A DNA stretch of 64,000 bases from Rhizobium sp. NZLR1. Its GTDB lineage: Bacteria > Pseudomonadota > Alphaproteobacteria > Rhizobiales > Rhizobiaceae. Made by a program: the position numbers and the translations under genes. Position 1 is the first letter of the stretch. The number at the start of each line of letters is the position of its first letter. The DNA lies in contig NZ_CP071632.1 of NCBI RefSeq assembly GCF_017357385.1, positions 2,175,501-2,239,500 on the forward strand. The letters are read 5' to 3'. Below, piece after piece: positions 14,560-56,738 of this stretch. The notes beneath the pieces are model-generated. The model did not search any database, was not told the DNA's origin, and was given only the letters and a program-made list of their open reading frames with translations.

Positions 14560-16050
14560 ATGGAGCATGCAGTCGTTATTGCCGGAGGGGGGCCGACCGG
14601 CCTGATGCTGGCGGGCGAATTGGCCTTGGCGGGCGTCGATGTCGCCATCATCGAACGCCGGCCGAACCAGGAGATCGTCGGTTCGCGCGCCGGCGGTCTG
14701 AGCGCGCGCACGCTCGAGGTTCTCGACCAGCGCGGCATCGTCGACCGGTTCCTGGCGGAGGGCCAGATCGCCCAGGTCACCGGATTTGCGGTCACGCGGC
14801 TGGATATCAGCGATTTTCCGACCCGGCATAATTATGGTCTGGCGCTGCGGCAGAAGCATATTGAGCGCATTCTGGCCGGATGGGTCGGCGAGTTGCCGGT
14901 GCCGATCTATCGCGGCCGCGAACTGACGTCCTTTCAGCAGGACGACACCGGCGTCACCATCGAACGCTCCGATGGGGCTTCGTTGAGGGCAGGTTATCTC
15001 GTCGGCTGCGATGGCGGCCGCAGTCTGGTTCGCAAGATGGCCGGCATTGAATTTCCAGGATGGGATGCGACGACCAGCAACATTCTCGCCGAGGCCGAGA
15101 TGGAGGAGGAGCCGCCACTCGGCGTCCATCGCACCGCGCTCGGCATGCATGCCTTCGGCCGGGAGGAATATGAAATTCGCGACGGCAAGGTCGTCTTTGC
15201 CAGCGAAGGTCCGATCAATGTCATGGTGACGGAAAAGAATGCCGGCGCCACGAGCGAACCGACGCTCGGCGATCTCAAAGAAGGCCTGATCGCCGCATGC
15301 GGAACGGATTACGGAATCCATGGTCTGACCTGGATTTCCAGGTTCACCGACATGTCGCGGCAGGCGTCGGCCTACCGCAAGGGCCGCGTTCTCCTGGCTG
15401 GCGATGCCGCGCATGTGCATTCTCCGGTGGGCGGGCAGGGCCTCAATACCGGTGTGCAGGATGCCGTGAATCTGGGCTGGAAGCTGGCCCAGGTGGTGAA
15501 GTGCATATCGCCGGAAAGCTTGCTCGACACCTACCACGCCGAGCGCCATCCAGTGGCCGCCCGCGTGTTGCGGACGACGATGGCACAGGTCGCCTTGCAA
15601 CGGACCGATGACCGAACCGAAGCCCTGCGGGACGTGGTCTTGGAGCTGCTCGCCATGCAGGAGCCGCGCAAAAGGATCGCCGCCGAAATGTCCGGCCTGG
15701 CCATCCACTACGACCTTGGCGACGGGCATCCGCTGCTCGGCCGCCGCATGCCCGACCTCGACCTCACCACGCTCGATGGCCCCTTGCGCGCCTATACGCT
15801 GCTCCAAAATGCGCGGCCGATGCTCGTGAATCTCGGCACGCCCGGCAGTCTCGACATCACGCCGTGGTCAGACCGCGTCCAGCTGGTTGACGCCGGCTGT
15901 GATGGTGCGTGGGAGCTGCCTGGGCTGGGTGCGGTCTCTGCACCGACTGCAATTTTGATCCGACCCGATGGCTATGTCGCGTGGGTCGGTGAGGGGACGC
16001 AGGATGGTCTGCGCGAGGCGATGAACAGCTGGTTCGGAGCGCCAGGCTGA
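14560..16050 (+). CDS. FAD-dependent aromatic monooxygenase (PheA/TfdB family)
   Basis: The Rossmann FAD motif is at the N-terminus (VVIAGGGPTGLMLAGELA), the DG motif in GCDGGRSLVRKMAGI, and the GD motif in LLAGDAAHVHSPVGGQGLNT. The C-terminal ~110 residues resemble the thioredoxin-like domain of class A flavoprotein hydroxylases (PheA, PgaE, Rox-type). Such enzymes use NAD(P)H and O2 to hydroxylate aromatic compounds, including antibiotics such as rifampicin in Rox. At 496 residues the length fits. It follows the LysR gene in the same direction. A second, distinct paralogue lies at 21413-22909. The substrate cannot be read from sequence. Confidence 0.9.
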   Translation: MEHAVVIAGGGPTGLMLAGELALAGVDVAIIERRPNQEIVGSRAGGLSARTLEVLDQRGIVDRFLAEGQIAQVTGFAVTRLDISDFPTRHNYGLALRQKHIERILAGWVGELPVPIYRGRELTSFQQDDTGVTIERSDGASLRAGYLVGCDGGRSLVRKMAGIEFPGWDATTSNILAEAEMEEEPPLGVHRTALGMHAFGREEYEIRDGKVVFASEGPINVMVTEKNAGATSEPTLGDLKEGLIAACGTDYGIHGLTWISRFTDMSRQASAYRKGRVLLAGDAAHVHSPVGGQGLNTGVQDAVNLGWKLAQVVKCISPESLLDTYHAERHPVAARVLRTTMAQVALQRTDDRTEALRDVVLELLAMQEPRKRIAAEMSGLAIHYDLGDGHPLLGRRMPDLDLTTLDGPLRAYTLLQNARPMLVNLGTPGSLDITPWSDRVQLVDAGCDGAWELPGLGAVSAPTAILIRPDGYVAWVGEGTQDGLREAMNSWFGAPG

Positions 16051-18868: not shown

Positions 18869-19162
18869 ATGAATGAAACTCGGTTCGATCCGGTTTTGCT
18901 TCATCGTCAGCATTTCATCGCTGAGATCACGTGTCTCGATGAAATCTTCGATATTCTCGGTGAATGGCCGGAGGACAAGCGAGGTCTGGCATATGACACG
19001 CTGTTGAAGGCGTGCAGAGACACGGCCAGCGGCCGTTTCCCGCTGAGTGCTGCGCGCGAGAATTTCCGGCGGTTTCTGAAGATGTCGGGTGTGCTGGCCA
19101 AGGTCGAGGGCGCCCCCAAATTCGAACAGCTGATGGGCGATCGAAATATCGGCAATGCCTGA
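18869..19162 (+). CDS. DUF982 family protein, 97 aa
   Basis: The family pattern is clear: a strand-like start (FDPVLLHRQHFIAEI), then IFDILGEWPEDKRGLAYDTLLKAC with the invariant WP and G, and a helical end (AARENFRRFLKMSGVL). DUF982 proteins are short, nearly restricted to Rhizobiales, often multi-copy on plasmids and accessory regions, and of unknown function. The ATG at 18869 follows GGGAGGAATACT. A second member lies at 20469-20726 on the same strand, the other side of a cyclase gene. Confidence 0.85.
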   Translation: MNETRFDPVLLHRQHFIAEITCLDEIFDILGEWPEDKRGLAYDTLLKACRDTASGRFPLSAARENFRRFLKMSGVLAKVEGAPKFEQLMGDRNIGNA

Positions 19163-20083: not shown

Positions 20084-20468
20084 CGCGCGTCCTCCCAGAA
20101 GGGATGGCATTGTACGATCTGGATGCGGCTGCGTCCACCTTTGGGACAATCAATATCCGATCATTTCGGCCTGTTGCTTCCAGAAATGCCAATGAAATCC
20201 TGTCAGTTCTATAGAATACTAGGGAAGAGATTGATTTTAATGAGTAGGTTCGGGAGGGAAAGCCTGATATTTACCATAATCTGTCGTTTGATAACTGATC
20301 GCCGGGTTCTCTGCGCCGATCGGGACGGTTCAAAGGTTGCATGTTCTCAAAGCGCCTGGCTGGAGGGACGAGGAGACATAGTTGCCCCGCAGGCGAGCGG
20401 CCCGCCAACGGCACGCAAATTGCATTGTTACTGGTACGCTCACCGAAATTGGGAAAAGCTGTAGCAAA
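20084..20468. other. Intergenic stretch between cyclase and second DUF982 gene
   Basis: About 385 bases, AT-richer than the flanks around 20190-20290. One frame (ATG 20240 to 20464, about 74 residues) has a GGGAAGAG stretch nearby, but its residues (many R, C, W) do not look like a natural protein, so it is not called. The region must hold the cyclase promoter. Confidence 0.35.
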
Positions 20469-20726
20469 GTGAGACAGACGGCACATTTTCGACCGGTCGG
20501 CTTGGCCTCAATAGGGCTCGGCCATTATGCCGTTATTAACTCTGTGTGGGATGCCGCGCGCACGCTGCTGCACGATTGGCCAGTAGACGACGGCGAAGAA
20601 TATTTCGAAGCCGTGAAATCCTGCCTGGATGCGATCATCGGCGATCTCCCGCCGGATGAGGTGCGGGCATCCTTCATCAGGGCTGCGCAGGAAGCCGGCA
20701 TCGCCGTCATCGAAGCTGCGGACTGA
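20469..20726 (+). CDS. DUF982 family protein, 85 aa
   Basis: The family pattern repeats: ARTLLHDWPVDDGEEYFEAV with the conserved WP, KSCLDAIIGDLPPDEV, and SFIRAAQEAGIAVI at the end. It differs clearly from the copy at 18869, so it is not a recent duplication. The start is unsure. A GTG at 20469 gives the normal length; the upstream ATG at 20382 would add 29 residues of unlikely composition. Function is unknown. Confidence 0.75.
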   Translation: MRQTAHFRPVGLASIGLGHYAVINSVWDAARTLLHDWPVDDGEEYFEAVKSCLDAIIGDLPPDEVRASFIRAAQEAGIAVIEAAD

Positions 20727-20791: not shown

Positions 20792-20819
20792 TTGACTTTT
20801 CCGGCCGAGGTTCTATTTT
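20792..20819 (+). promoter_or_regulatory. Sigma-70-type promoter of the SOS-box small-gene pair
   Basis: TTGACT (20792-20797), 16 bp, TATTTT (20814-20819). The predicted start of transcription (~20826) falls inside the LexA-type box at 20821-20835. Confidence 0.65.
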
Positions 20820-20835
20820 AGAACAAATCAGGAAC
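20810..20835 (+). promoter_or_regulatory. LexA (SOS) box, GAAC-N7-GAAC, with extra inverted half-site
   Basis: GAACAAATCAGGAAC (20821-20835) is an exact alphaproteobacterial LexA direct repeat (GAAC-N7-GAAC, the reverse complement of GTTC-N7-GTTC). An inverted GTTC half-site at 20810-20813 is spaced another seven bases upstream. The box covers the transcription start of the promoter at 20792-20819, the ideal place for repression. Confidence 0.75.
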
Positions 20836-20848
20836 ATCGGAGATGGTC

Positions 20849-21019
20849 ATGACGCATACGGAACAGGTGATCGCCAACGCCCTAGCTCTTGTCGAAGCGT
20901 CCCGCGCGGCGCGCGAGCGGGATCAGCTGCGGCGCGCCGCCTGGCAGAGAAAGGTCGAACTCAGCCGGCCGCTGCCGCCCTTGCCACGCCCGGTTCAATT
21001 GCCACTGGCGCTAAACTGA
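20849..21019 (+). CDS. Small SOS-box-controlled protein, 56 aa
   Basis: The protein begins MTHTEQVIANALALVEASRAARERDQLRRAAW, here given as a region (residues 1-32), and is a charged helical hairpin-like segment, then RKVELSRPLPPLPRP and the tail LPLALN. ATG 20849 has GGAG six bases upstream; ATG 20843 would be too close. Its stop overlaps the next start (TGATG), so the two are translationally coupled. A LexA box lies 14 bases upstream. I do not recognise the family; an SOS role is inferred from the operator. Confidence 0.65.
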   Translation: MTHTEQVIANALALVEASRAARERDQLRRAAWQRKVELSRPLPPLPRPVQLPLALN

Positions 21020-21285
21020 TGCAGCCGGCAAAGATCTTGCAACCCGAGCCGGCTTGGCCCGATTCAGCGCGGCCCGATCCGGCTTGGCCCGATACAGCTT
21101 GGCCAGATCCGGCGTGGGAAGTCGAAGCCGTGCTTGCCTGGCATGACGACAATGCCAAGGCGGCGATCCGCTCGCTGCTCGACGACTGCAAACATCTGCG
21201 CCAGCAACTGGCGCTGGCGGAGAGAGCGATCAGCCGGGGAATGACCCGCGGTTGGACGCCGCGATACGAGCGCGACGCCCTCTGA
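21019..21285 (+). CDS. Second SOS-box-unit protein with W-P-D-P-A repeats, 88 aa
   Basis: The ATG overlaps the previous stop by one base. Residues ~8-33 are a run of W-P-D repeats (PEPAWPDSARPDPAWPDTAW, then PDPAWEVE). The rest is a helical domain (VLAWHDDNAKAAIRSLLDDC, KHLRQQLALAERAIS) ending RGWTPRYERDAL. The repeat arises from a ~15-base degenerate DNA repeat (GG/ATCCGGCTTGGCC). The function is unknown. The helical part looks natural and well conserved in character, so I take the gene as real, in one unit with the preceding LexA-box gene. Confidence 0.65.
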   Translation: MQPAKILQPEPAWPDSARPDPAWPDTAWPDPAWEVEAVLAWHDDNAKAAIRSLLDDCKHLRQQLALAERAISRGMTRGWTPRYERDAL

Positions 21286-55658: not shown

Positions 55659-56738
55659 ATGAGCGGGCTCGAGCTCAGGAACATTGTCAAGAATTTCGGC
55701 ACCGTCGAGGTCATCCGTGATGTCTCGCTTGCCGTCGACGATGGCGAGTTCGTCGCTTTCGTCGGCCCTTCCGGTTGCGGGAAATCGACGCTGCTACGTC
55801 TGATCGCCGGCCTCGACAAGCCCACAGGCGGCAGCATCGCTATCGACGGCAAGGATGTGACCGAGATCGGCGCCGCCGACCGCGGCCTTGCCATGGTCTT
55901 CCAGTCCTATGCGCTCTATCCGCATATGAGCGTGCGGGAAAACCTGGCCTTCGGTTTGGAGAATACCAAGGTGGCCAAGGCCGAGATCGAAGCGCGCATC
56001 GCTGACGCCGCCCGCATGCTGGAAATCGAGCCCTTCCTGCAGCGCCGTCCCGGTCAGCTTTCCGGCGGCCAGCGCCAGCGCGTGGCGATCGGCCGCGCCA
56101 TCGTCCGCCGGCCGGATGCCTTCCTGCTCGACGAGCCATTGTCCAATCTCGACGCCGAACTCCGGGTCAGCATGCGCGCCGAACTCGCCGCCCTCCACGC
56201 CCGCCTGAAGGCGACGATGATCTACGTCACCCACGATCAGGTCGAGGCGATGACGCTTGCCGACCGCATCGTCGTGCTTCGAAGCGGCAGGATCGAGCAG
56301 GTGGGAACGCCGTTGGAACTATACAACACGCCGGCCAACCGCTTCGTCGCCGGTTTCATCGGCGCGCCGCACATGAATTTCCTGGAAGGTGCGATCATCG
56401 GCCATGAGAATGGTTTCGCCGAGGTGGAAACCGTCGGCGGCCACCGTCTCTCGGTGATTGCTAAAGAGATGCGCCCAATCGGCGAAAGGGTCAGCATCGG
56501 CATCCGGCCCCAGCACATCACCCTTGCCGATGGAACTGGTGCGCGCAAGCTGGACACCCGCATCACCCTTGTCGAGGAACTGGGCTCGGAGACCGTCGTC
56601 CACGCCGACGCAGGTGGAAAGAAGTTGATCGCCGTCTTTGCCGGCCAGCAGCGCATGAAATCGGGCGACAGCCTGCCGCTGCATCTTGATCCCGCTGTGC
56701 TCCACCTCTTCGGCGAGGACGGCCGGCGTCTGTGCTGA
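55659..56738 (+). CDS. CUT1 ABC sugar transporter ATP-binding protein (MalK/UgpC type)
   Basis: ATG 55659 follows GGAGAGTGC. Walker [18 protein letters not shown]-loop [15 protein letters not shown], signature [17 protein letters not shown], Walker [15 protein letters not shown] and H-loop YVTHDQVEAMTL are intact; the C-terminal ~120 residues form the TOBE/OB regulatory domain (RPQHITLADGT, LGSETVVHADAGGKK). 359 residues is normal. It ends the importer operon of the LacI locus. It is related to, but not a copy of, the 39293 gene. Confidence 0.93.
   Translation: MSGLELRNIVKNFGTVEVIRDVSLAVDDGEFVAFVGPSGCGKSTLLRLIAGLDKPTGGSIAIDGKDVTEIGAADRGLAMVFQSYALYPHMSVRENLAFGLENTKVAKAEIEARIADAARMLEIEPFLQRRPGQLSGGQRQRVAIGRAIVRRPDAFLLDEPLSNLDAELRVSMRAELAALHARLKATMIYVTHDQVEAMTLADRIVVLRSGRIEQVGTPLELYNTPANRFVAGFIGAPHMNFLEGAIIGHENGFAEVETVGGHRLSVIAKEMRPIGERVSIGIRPQHITLADGTGARKLDTRITLVEELGSETVVHADAGGKKLIAVFAGQQRMKSGDSLPLHLDPAVLHLFGEDGRRLC

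Follow-up and report, generated by a model that had tools for sequence, protein, structure and literature searches.

What might two overlapping small genes of unfamiliar sequence be doing behind a LexA-type box in Rhizobium? The question was raised by an earlier note on a stretch of 64,000 nt from Rhizobium sp. NZLR1 (contig NZ_CP071632.1; the whole stretch is called the window here, and coordinates without a locus label refer to it). That note described a TTGACT/TATTTT promoter, the box GAACAAATCAGGAAC and two genes of 56 and 88 residues that overlap by TGATG. All of these elements are present in the sequence, with the same coordinates and gene lengths, and the two genes (ORF1 and ORF2) were found at 20849-21019 and 21019-21285.

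A LexA-type box ahead of two overlapping small genes

The locus contains the following features:

20792..20797, plus strand: −35-like TTGACT, from the sequence; 38 of the 40 family homologues have TTGAC at most 45 nt 5' of the box
20810..20813, plus strand: extra inverted half-site GTTC, 7 nt ahead of the first GAAC; kept in 9 of 14 close loci
20814..20819, plus strand: −10-like TATTTT, from the sequence
20821..20835, plus strand: LexA-type box GAACAAATCAGGAAC (GAAC-N7-GAAC); retained at all 14 close loci and upstream of all 40 intact family homologues and all 40 further genus homologues
20839..20842, plus strand: Shine-Dalgarno-like GGAG for ORF1, from the sequence
20849..21019, plus strand: ORF1, 56 residues, modeled as a helix (3-38) with an extended C-terminal tail; dN/dS 0.05
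20996..21013, plus strand: QLPLAL, codons 50-55 of ORF1, which fits the hexameric beta-clamp-binding motif QLxLxL (alignment; consensus from the available part of PMC4564189)
21019..21285, plus strand: ORF2, 88 residues, whose start codon overlaps the stop codon of ORF1 (TGATG); the domain has a dN/dS of 0.085
21046..21117, plus strand: W-P-D repeat stretch of ORF2, variable, devoid of secondary structure in the model
21118..21273, plus strand: conserved ORF2 domain with helix 31-41, a GD-type loop, helix 46-71 and a GxTRGWxP-like stretch

The distance from the start of GAACAAATCAGGAAC to the start of ORF1 is 28 nt. An alternative in-frame ATG at 20843 would extend ORF1 to 58 residues; because this codon is ATT in one relative (L013), the start at 20849 is the likelier one. 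The added GTTC half-site that the earlier note had pointed out is indeed present at 20810, where it forms GTTCTATTTTAGAAC (20810-20824) together with the first GAAC. However, it is kept in only 9 of the 14 close relatives and is therefore not a fixed part of the arrangement. Two ORFs left of the locus, at 20382-20726 and 18869-19162, encode DUF982 domains. Other exact GAAC-N7-GAAC matches, with GC-richer spacers, occur in the window at 14653-14667 and 56305-56319.

Conservation of the box and of ORF1

GAAC-N7-GAAC is the operator consensus of the alphaproteobacterial LexA regulon. The bare pattern alone is not above chance: the window contains 3 occurrences versus 1.78 expected, a number reached in 24 of 100 shuffles, and the whole genome contains 185, versus 158 for the reversed pattern. 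The box of this particular locus is above chance because it is conserved in the close loci and lies ahead of all 40 intact homologues across the family. All 14 close loci (the window and 13 named relatives, L001-L013, from the etli/leguminosarum group of Rhizobium) retain the box, and the majority base accounts on average for 98% across the box versus 51% in the region from −110 to −70. In the family-wide set, the box lies 28-49 nt upstream of the ORF1 match in 40 of 40 intact homologues, and it is also found upstream of 40 of 40 further homologues from the genus, all of which were identified by protein sequence only, with the box playing no role in the searches. The chance of a box is about 0.0004 per 30 start positions. 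TTGAC begins 20-29 nt ahead of the box in 38 of the 40 family homologues, and the spacer of the box has an A at positions 1 and 3 in all 40. The locus thus appears to carry a GAAC-N7-GAAC operator at its putative promoter.

Within the window's genus, ORF1 was detected in 117 of 120 genomes (the three without a match are 73-82% complete) and in all 113 genomes with at least 90% completeness and at most 5% contamination. Across the Rhizobiaceae, a profile built from 11 relatives matched 43 places in 38 of 297 genomes, representing 14 of 109 genera. Forty of these places are intact (at least 40 bits with a wider profile, A4), two are fragments (L088 and L090), and one (L093) had no A4 match. The intact places span 11 genera, including the window's own. 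The earlier note had made its reading depend on conservation in relatives, and the box and ORF1 are conserved across the genus and ten other Rhizobiaceae genera. Profile A4, when run against a draw of 297 family genomes, matched 39 genomes from 13 genera, some of these matches being weak or partial. Since matches occur in only 13 of the 109 sampled Rhizobiaceae genera, ORF1 is not a universal SOS function. An order-wide search recovered ORF1 from at least 5 of 347 genomes, all of them Rhizobiaceae; this search may miss distant forms, because scoring was limited to 18 candidates per genome.

The further genus sample consists of 40 of the 128 genus places, mostly lower-scoring ones; 29 of its 40 proteins are mutually distinct and absent from A4, and one (L254) is the same record as the A4 row L018. 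The box lies 28-40 nt ahead of the match in 32 of these 40 places, and in the other 8 the match starts inside the protein and the box lies 80-93 nt ahead of the anchor. In eight genus genomes (L218-L225), ORF1 has a longer N-terminus, and GTTC half-sites are located between the box and the gene. Divergent ORF1 copies from three genomes of one further Rhizobiaceae genus (L258-L260) have the box 84-118 nt from the anchor. The boxless copies are the fragments L088 and L090 and the degenerate L261.

On mobile elements, ORF1 (P0001) had no match among the named phage records, and a narrow ORF1 profile (A2) found no relative among the viral contigs. Two viral contigs that were reached only via ORF2 matches (L180 and L186) do contain ORF1. 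When two further ORF1 members were compared with named plasmids, one matched its own source record only and the other had no match. Units of box, ORF1 and ORF2 are present on four plasmids (L166, L167, L171 and L173) as well as on these two viral contigs.

The ratio of mean dN to mean dS is 0.05 for ORF1 (91 pairs from the 14 close loci) and 0.085 for the ORF2 domain (55 pairs from the 11 of 14 close loci in which the domain is intact). These substitution patterns indicate that both small genes are under purifying selection and evolve as proteins.

The same box at known SOS genes

At known SOS genes, too, this genome carries the predicted GAAC-N7-GAAC operator. This pattern is found ahead of lexA, ssb and a radical SAM gene for DNA repair, as well as ahead of an SRAP gene and two imuA-imuB loci (imuA being named from its position beside ImuB). 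Among 16 box regions chosen for AT-rich spacers from the first 100 listed, no SOS gene was apparent in the remainder. A pair of GAAC-N7-GAAC boxes with a distance of 200 nt (L122, positions 351 and 551) is located upstream of a gene for the alpha subunit of Pol III (dnaE) in this genome.

A candidate clamp-binding motif at the end of ORF1

A feature absent from the earlier note is the C-terminal motif of ORF1. The available text of PMC4564189 gives QLxLxL as the hexameric beta-clamp-binding motif, and the ORF1 tail has the form (QLxLF or QLxLxL) expected of beta-clamp-binding proteins, which makes it a candidate clamp contact. DNA polymerases attach to the ring-shaped replication clamp by this motif. 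The pattern Q[LM]xLx[LF] is found at or near the C-terminus in all 80 ORF1 homologues (40 of 40 from the family and 40 of 40 from the genus), followed in some members by up to about 20 residues. In an alignment of 32 rows, Q50 and L53 never change and at least 90% of the rows have L51 and L55, while the neighboring residues and the length of the linker vary. The divergent copies L258-L260 have QLHFVF or QLHFIF close to the C-terminus, outside this pattern, perhaps a variant of the clamp motif. In the AlphaFold2 model of ORF1 (mean pLDDT 89.8), a single helix (3-38) is followed by an extended tail, and the motif is predicted to lie in an exposed segment.

Two of the three DinB-type proteins encoded in this genome have QLDLGL and QLRLAL as their last six residues. 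The third one and both ImuB-type proteins have no match to the pattern, so not every clamp user of this genome is marked by the motif. A set of 11,720 small ORFs from the collected loci includes 58 with the C-terminal motif, 120 with the box and 51 with both (0.6 expected), and all of these 51 are ORF1 relatives; as the loci had been chosen by homology, this count is a specificity check and gives no unbiased rate.

In line with the earlier note, which matched neither protein to a family, no model of Pfam, NCBIfam or PADLOC matches the window proteins, no PHROGs model matches the window rows of ORF1 and ORF2, and the ORF1 profile had no match among PDB sequences at E values up to 1. Among open-licence papers (titles and beginnings of abstracts), we found no description of either family.

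ORF2 and its neighborhood

ORF2 is a helical family of its own, usually preceded by a LexA-type box and in some places close to SRAP genes. The W-P-D repeats reported for this protein are real, but they lie in a variable N-terminal stretch that is absent from many relatives, and they are not a conserved feature of ORF2. With models of the UBA type, matches were obtained for UBA_HYPK in 5 of 40 members (best E value 0.00039), for UBA_HOIP in 5 of 40 and for CUE in 1 of 40; none of the UBA/CUE models matched ORF2 of the window. The ORF2 model has two helices, versus three in the UBA fold, and yielded one weak fold match (E value 7.9). The UBA matches are weak and serve as no more than a lead. 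Comparison with the PDB by sequence and by fold gave no usable name.

ORF2 is present in 42 of 199 Rhizobiaceae genomes and in 45 of 249 genomes of the order (Hyphomicrobiales), 40 of the 45 belonging to other families; some of the weakest order-wide matches, inside frames of several hundred residues, are probably due to chance. It was also found on 119 plasmid records and 31 viral contigs. At 62 distinct Rhizobiaceae loci, a box in either orientation lies within 300 nt upstream of ORF2 in 50 cases and within 1000 nt in 55. The corresponding numbers for 25 loci from other families (the best match from each of 25 genomes) are 15 and 18, and the values expected by chance are 0.8% and 2.7%, respectively. 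A box in the forward orientation lies within 330 nt of ORF2 in 8 of 12 plasmids, 22 of 35 viral or phage stretches and 26 of 36 genome loci.

Among 28 ORF2 places from 16 genomes, 7 have an SRAP gene no more than 4 kb downstream (about 0.0013 expected for each). An SRAP model built for this purpose from three sequences, which failed to recognize at least one SRAP recovered by Pfam (in G045), placed SRAP downstream of ORF2 in 5 of 12 plasmids, 18 of 35 viral or phage stretches and, among genome loci, 7 of 36. In G045 the gene order is box, ORF1, ORF2, SRAP; the window's genome has no SRAP gene in the 4 kb that follow ORF2. ORF2 is thus upstream of SRAP in a quarter to half of the examined loci, often behind a LexA-type box, which resembles the SOS operons of SRAP (DUF159/YedK) described in the main text of PMC3765255. 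In that main text, the terms clamp, rhizob, alphaproteobacteria and small protein do not occur. On two plasmids of R. leguminosarum/johnstonii (L014, 7531-7962, and L016, 5531-5944), a gene of about 140 residues is located between the box and ORF2. The Sinorhizobium phage phi2LM21 (L211, 1504-5058) has a box, ORF2, an SRAP gene and genes for ATP-dependent ligases, one of them LigD-like.

Proposed mechanism and alternatives

The box, the promoter-like layout and the conserved association of the box with ORF1 and its QLxLxL tail, as revealed by comparison of the loci, are the starting point for an explanation. We regard it as fairly probable that the locus is a LexA-repressed SOS unit whose product is a microprotein that binds the clamp and alters the set of proteins using it. 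LexA would bind the box at the promoter or start site, and DNA damage would clear LexA, upon which ORF1 would be made, plus ORF2 where it is present. Via its tail, ORF1 may bind the clamp. The most likely effect would be that ORF1 competes for the clamp with the replicative polymerase or with other users, resulting in slower synthesis and in access for repair or translesion enzymes. ORF2 would be an accessory of the same regulon, spread more widely in its own right across chromosomes, plasmids and phages.

A more specific form of this explanation, which we put forward tentatively, is an SOS replication brake of Rhizobium. Here, the near-universal, LexA-controlled ORF1 of 56 residues would fill the polymerase-binding cleft of the clamp during damage, restrain Pol III or other users and free the clamp for translesion polymerases; phages and plasmids carrying copies of ORF1, or ORF2 together with SRAP, would steer replication after damage.

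DinB, ImuB and UmuC are SOS-linked, damage-linked clamp users. Two DinB-type proteins of this genome share with ORF1 the terminal hexapeptide motif; however, DinB, ImuB and UmuC are proteins of the polymerase family, whereas ORF1 is a helix plus tail of 56 residues with no Pfam domain in its window row. SulA, SidA and DidA are small LexA-controlled proteins that stop a cell-cycle process. They act on cell division, and it is by this general description that they are set apart from ORF1 with its putative clamp motif.

The main alternative is that ORF1 acts as an adaptor, its motif bringing a partner (ORF2, SRAP, ImuB/DnaE2 or a protease substrate) to the clamp, with no displacement of the polymerase. 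We consider this possible, if somewhat unlikely. The sequence favors neither an inhibitor nor an adaptor role for ORF1. ORF2 follows ORF1 directly in 13 of 40 family places and in 10 of 40 further genus places, ORF1 precedes 4 of 12 plasmid ORF2 genes and 2 of 35 ORF2 matches on viral or phage stretches, and the SRAP genes downstream of ORF2 (7 of 28 places), together with the gene order in G045, would also fit an adaptor. However, ORF1 stands without ORF2 in 27 of 40 family and 30 of 40 genus places, ORF2 is broken while ORF1 stays intact in 3 of 14 close relatives, and the genome of the window lacks a downstream SRAP within the 4 kb. The coupling of the two genes proposed in the earlier note is thus real as an overlap in the window, but it is not obligatory.

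It is unlikely, in our view, that SOS control is real and the QLxLxL tail serves as a degradation tag or a contact to another partner, ORF1 not touching the clamp. A motif of six residues can be conserved for another reason, and clamp binding is proposed from a short sequence match. Moreover, family-library and PDB sequence searches found no relative of the ORF1 helix, and the three other IMS-family proteins of the genome do not have the pattern. Against this reading, the glutamine and the leucine pattern are kept while neighbors and linker length vary, and the same motif ends the two DinB-type proteins.

The two small overlapping genes, the clamp motif on the first of them and their carriage on plasmids and viral contigs could also suggest a toxin-antitoxin unit, with ORF1 as a clamp-blocking toxin similar to SocB, ORF2 as the antitoxin and LexA as a second layer of control. 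Such toxins exist: in the available parts of the respective papers, SocB (Caulobacter SocAB) is described to bind the hydrophobic cleft of the clamp through the usual clamp-binding motif (PMC9690074), and SocB and RipA (Streptococcus) are both reported as toxins acting on the sliding clamp (PMC12795458), the candidate target of ORF1. However, SocB and RipA are toxins of toxin-antitoxin systems, whereas ORF1 has a LexA-type box, is near-universal in the genus and has no fixed partner gene; the distinction is drawn from their descriptions and from the ORF1 profile, which lacks a sequence match in the PDB. We judge a toxin-antitoxin unit very unlikely, as 27 of 40 ORF1 genes lack ORF2, 67 of 83 examined ORF2 matches lack a neighboring ORF1, ORF1 has persisted longer than ORF2 in the 3 close relatives mentioned, and PADLOC has no match for the window proteins. 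An obligate pair is rejected in view of this loose pairing. Finally, a chance box ahead of an unrelated, non-SOS small gene, conceivable from the near-expected frequency of the pattern (185 in the genome, 3 in the window), is contradicted by its presence upstream of both sets of 40 homologues, whose identity with the window protein goes as low as 33%, and was rejected as extremely improbable.

Implications

The interpretation of the locus as a box-linked pair of unfamiliar small genes is supported by conservation and by the lack of a name in the searched libraries. Clamp-binding small proteins and small SOS effectors were already known; what is new is a microprotein with a candidate clamp motif behind a LexA-type box that is near-universal in a genus. 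The results would define two SOS-linked families without a name in these libraries, one of which also occurs outside the Rhizobiaceae and on plasmids and phages. ORF1, being small and testable, with its clamp motif and its presence in all near-complete genomes of the genus, would give a direct handle on the question of which protein occupies the sliding clamp in an SOS response and how this is decided.
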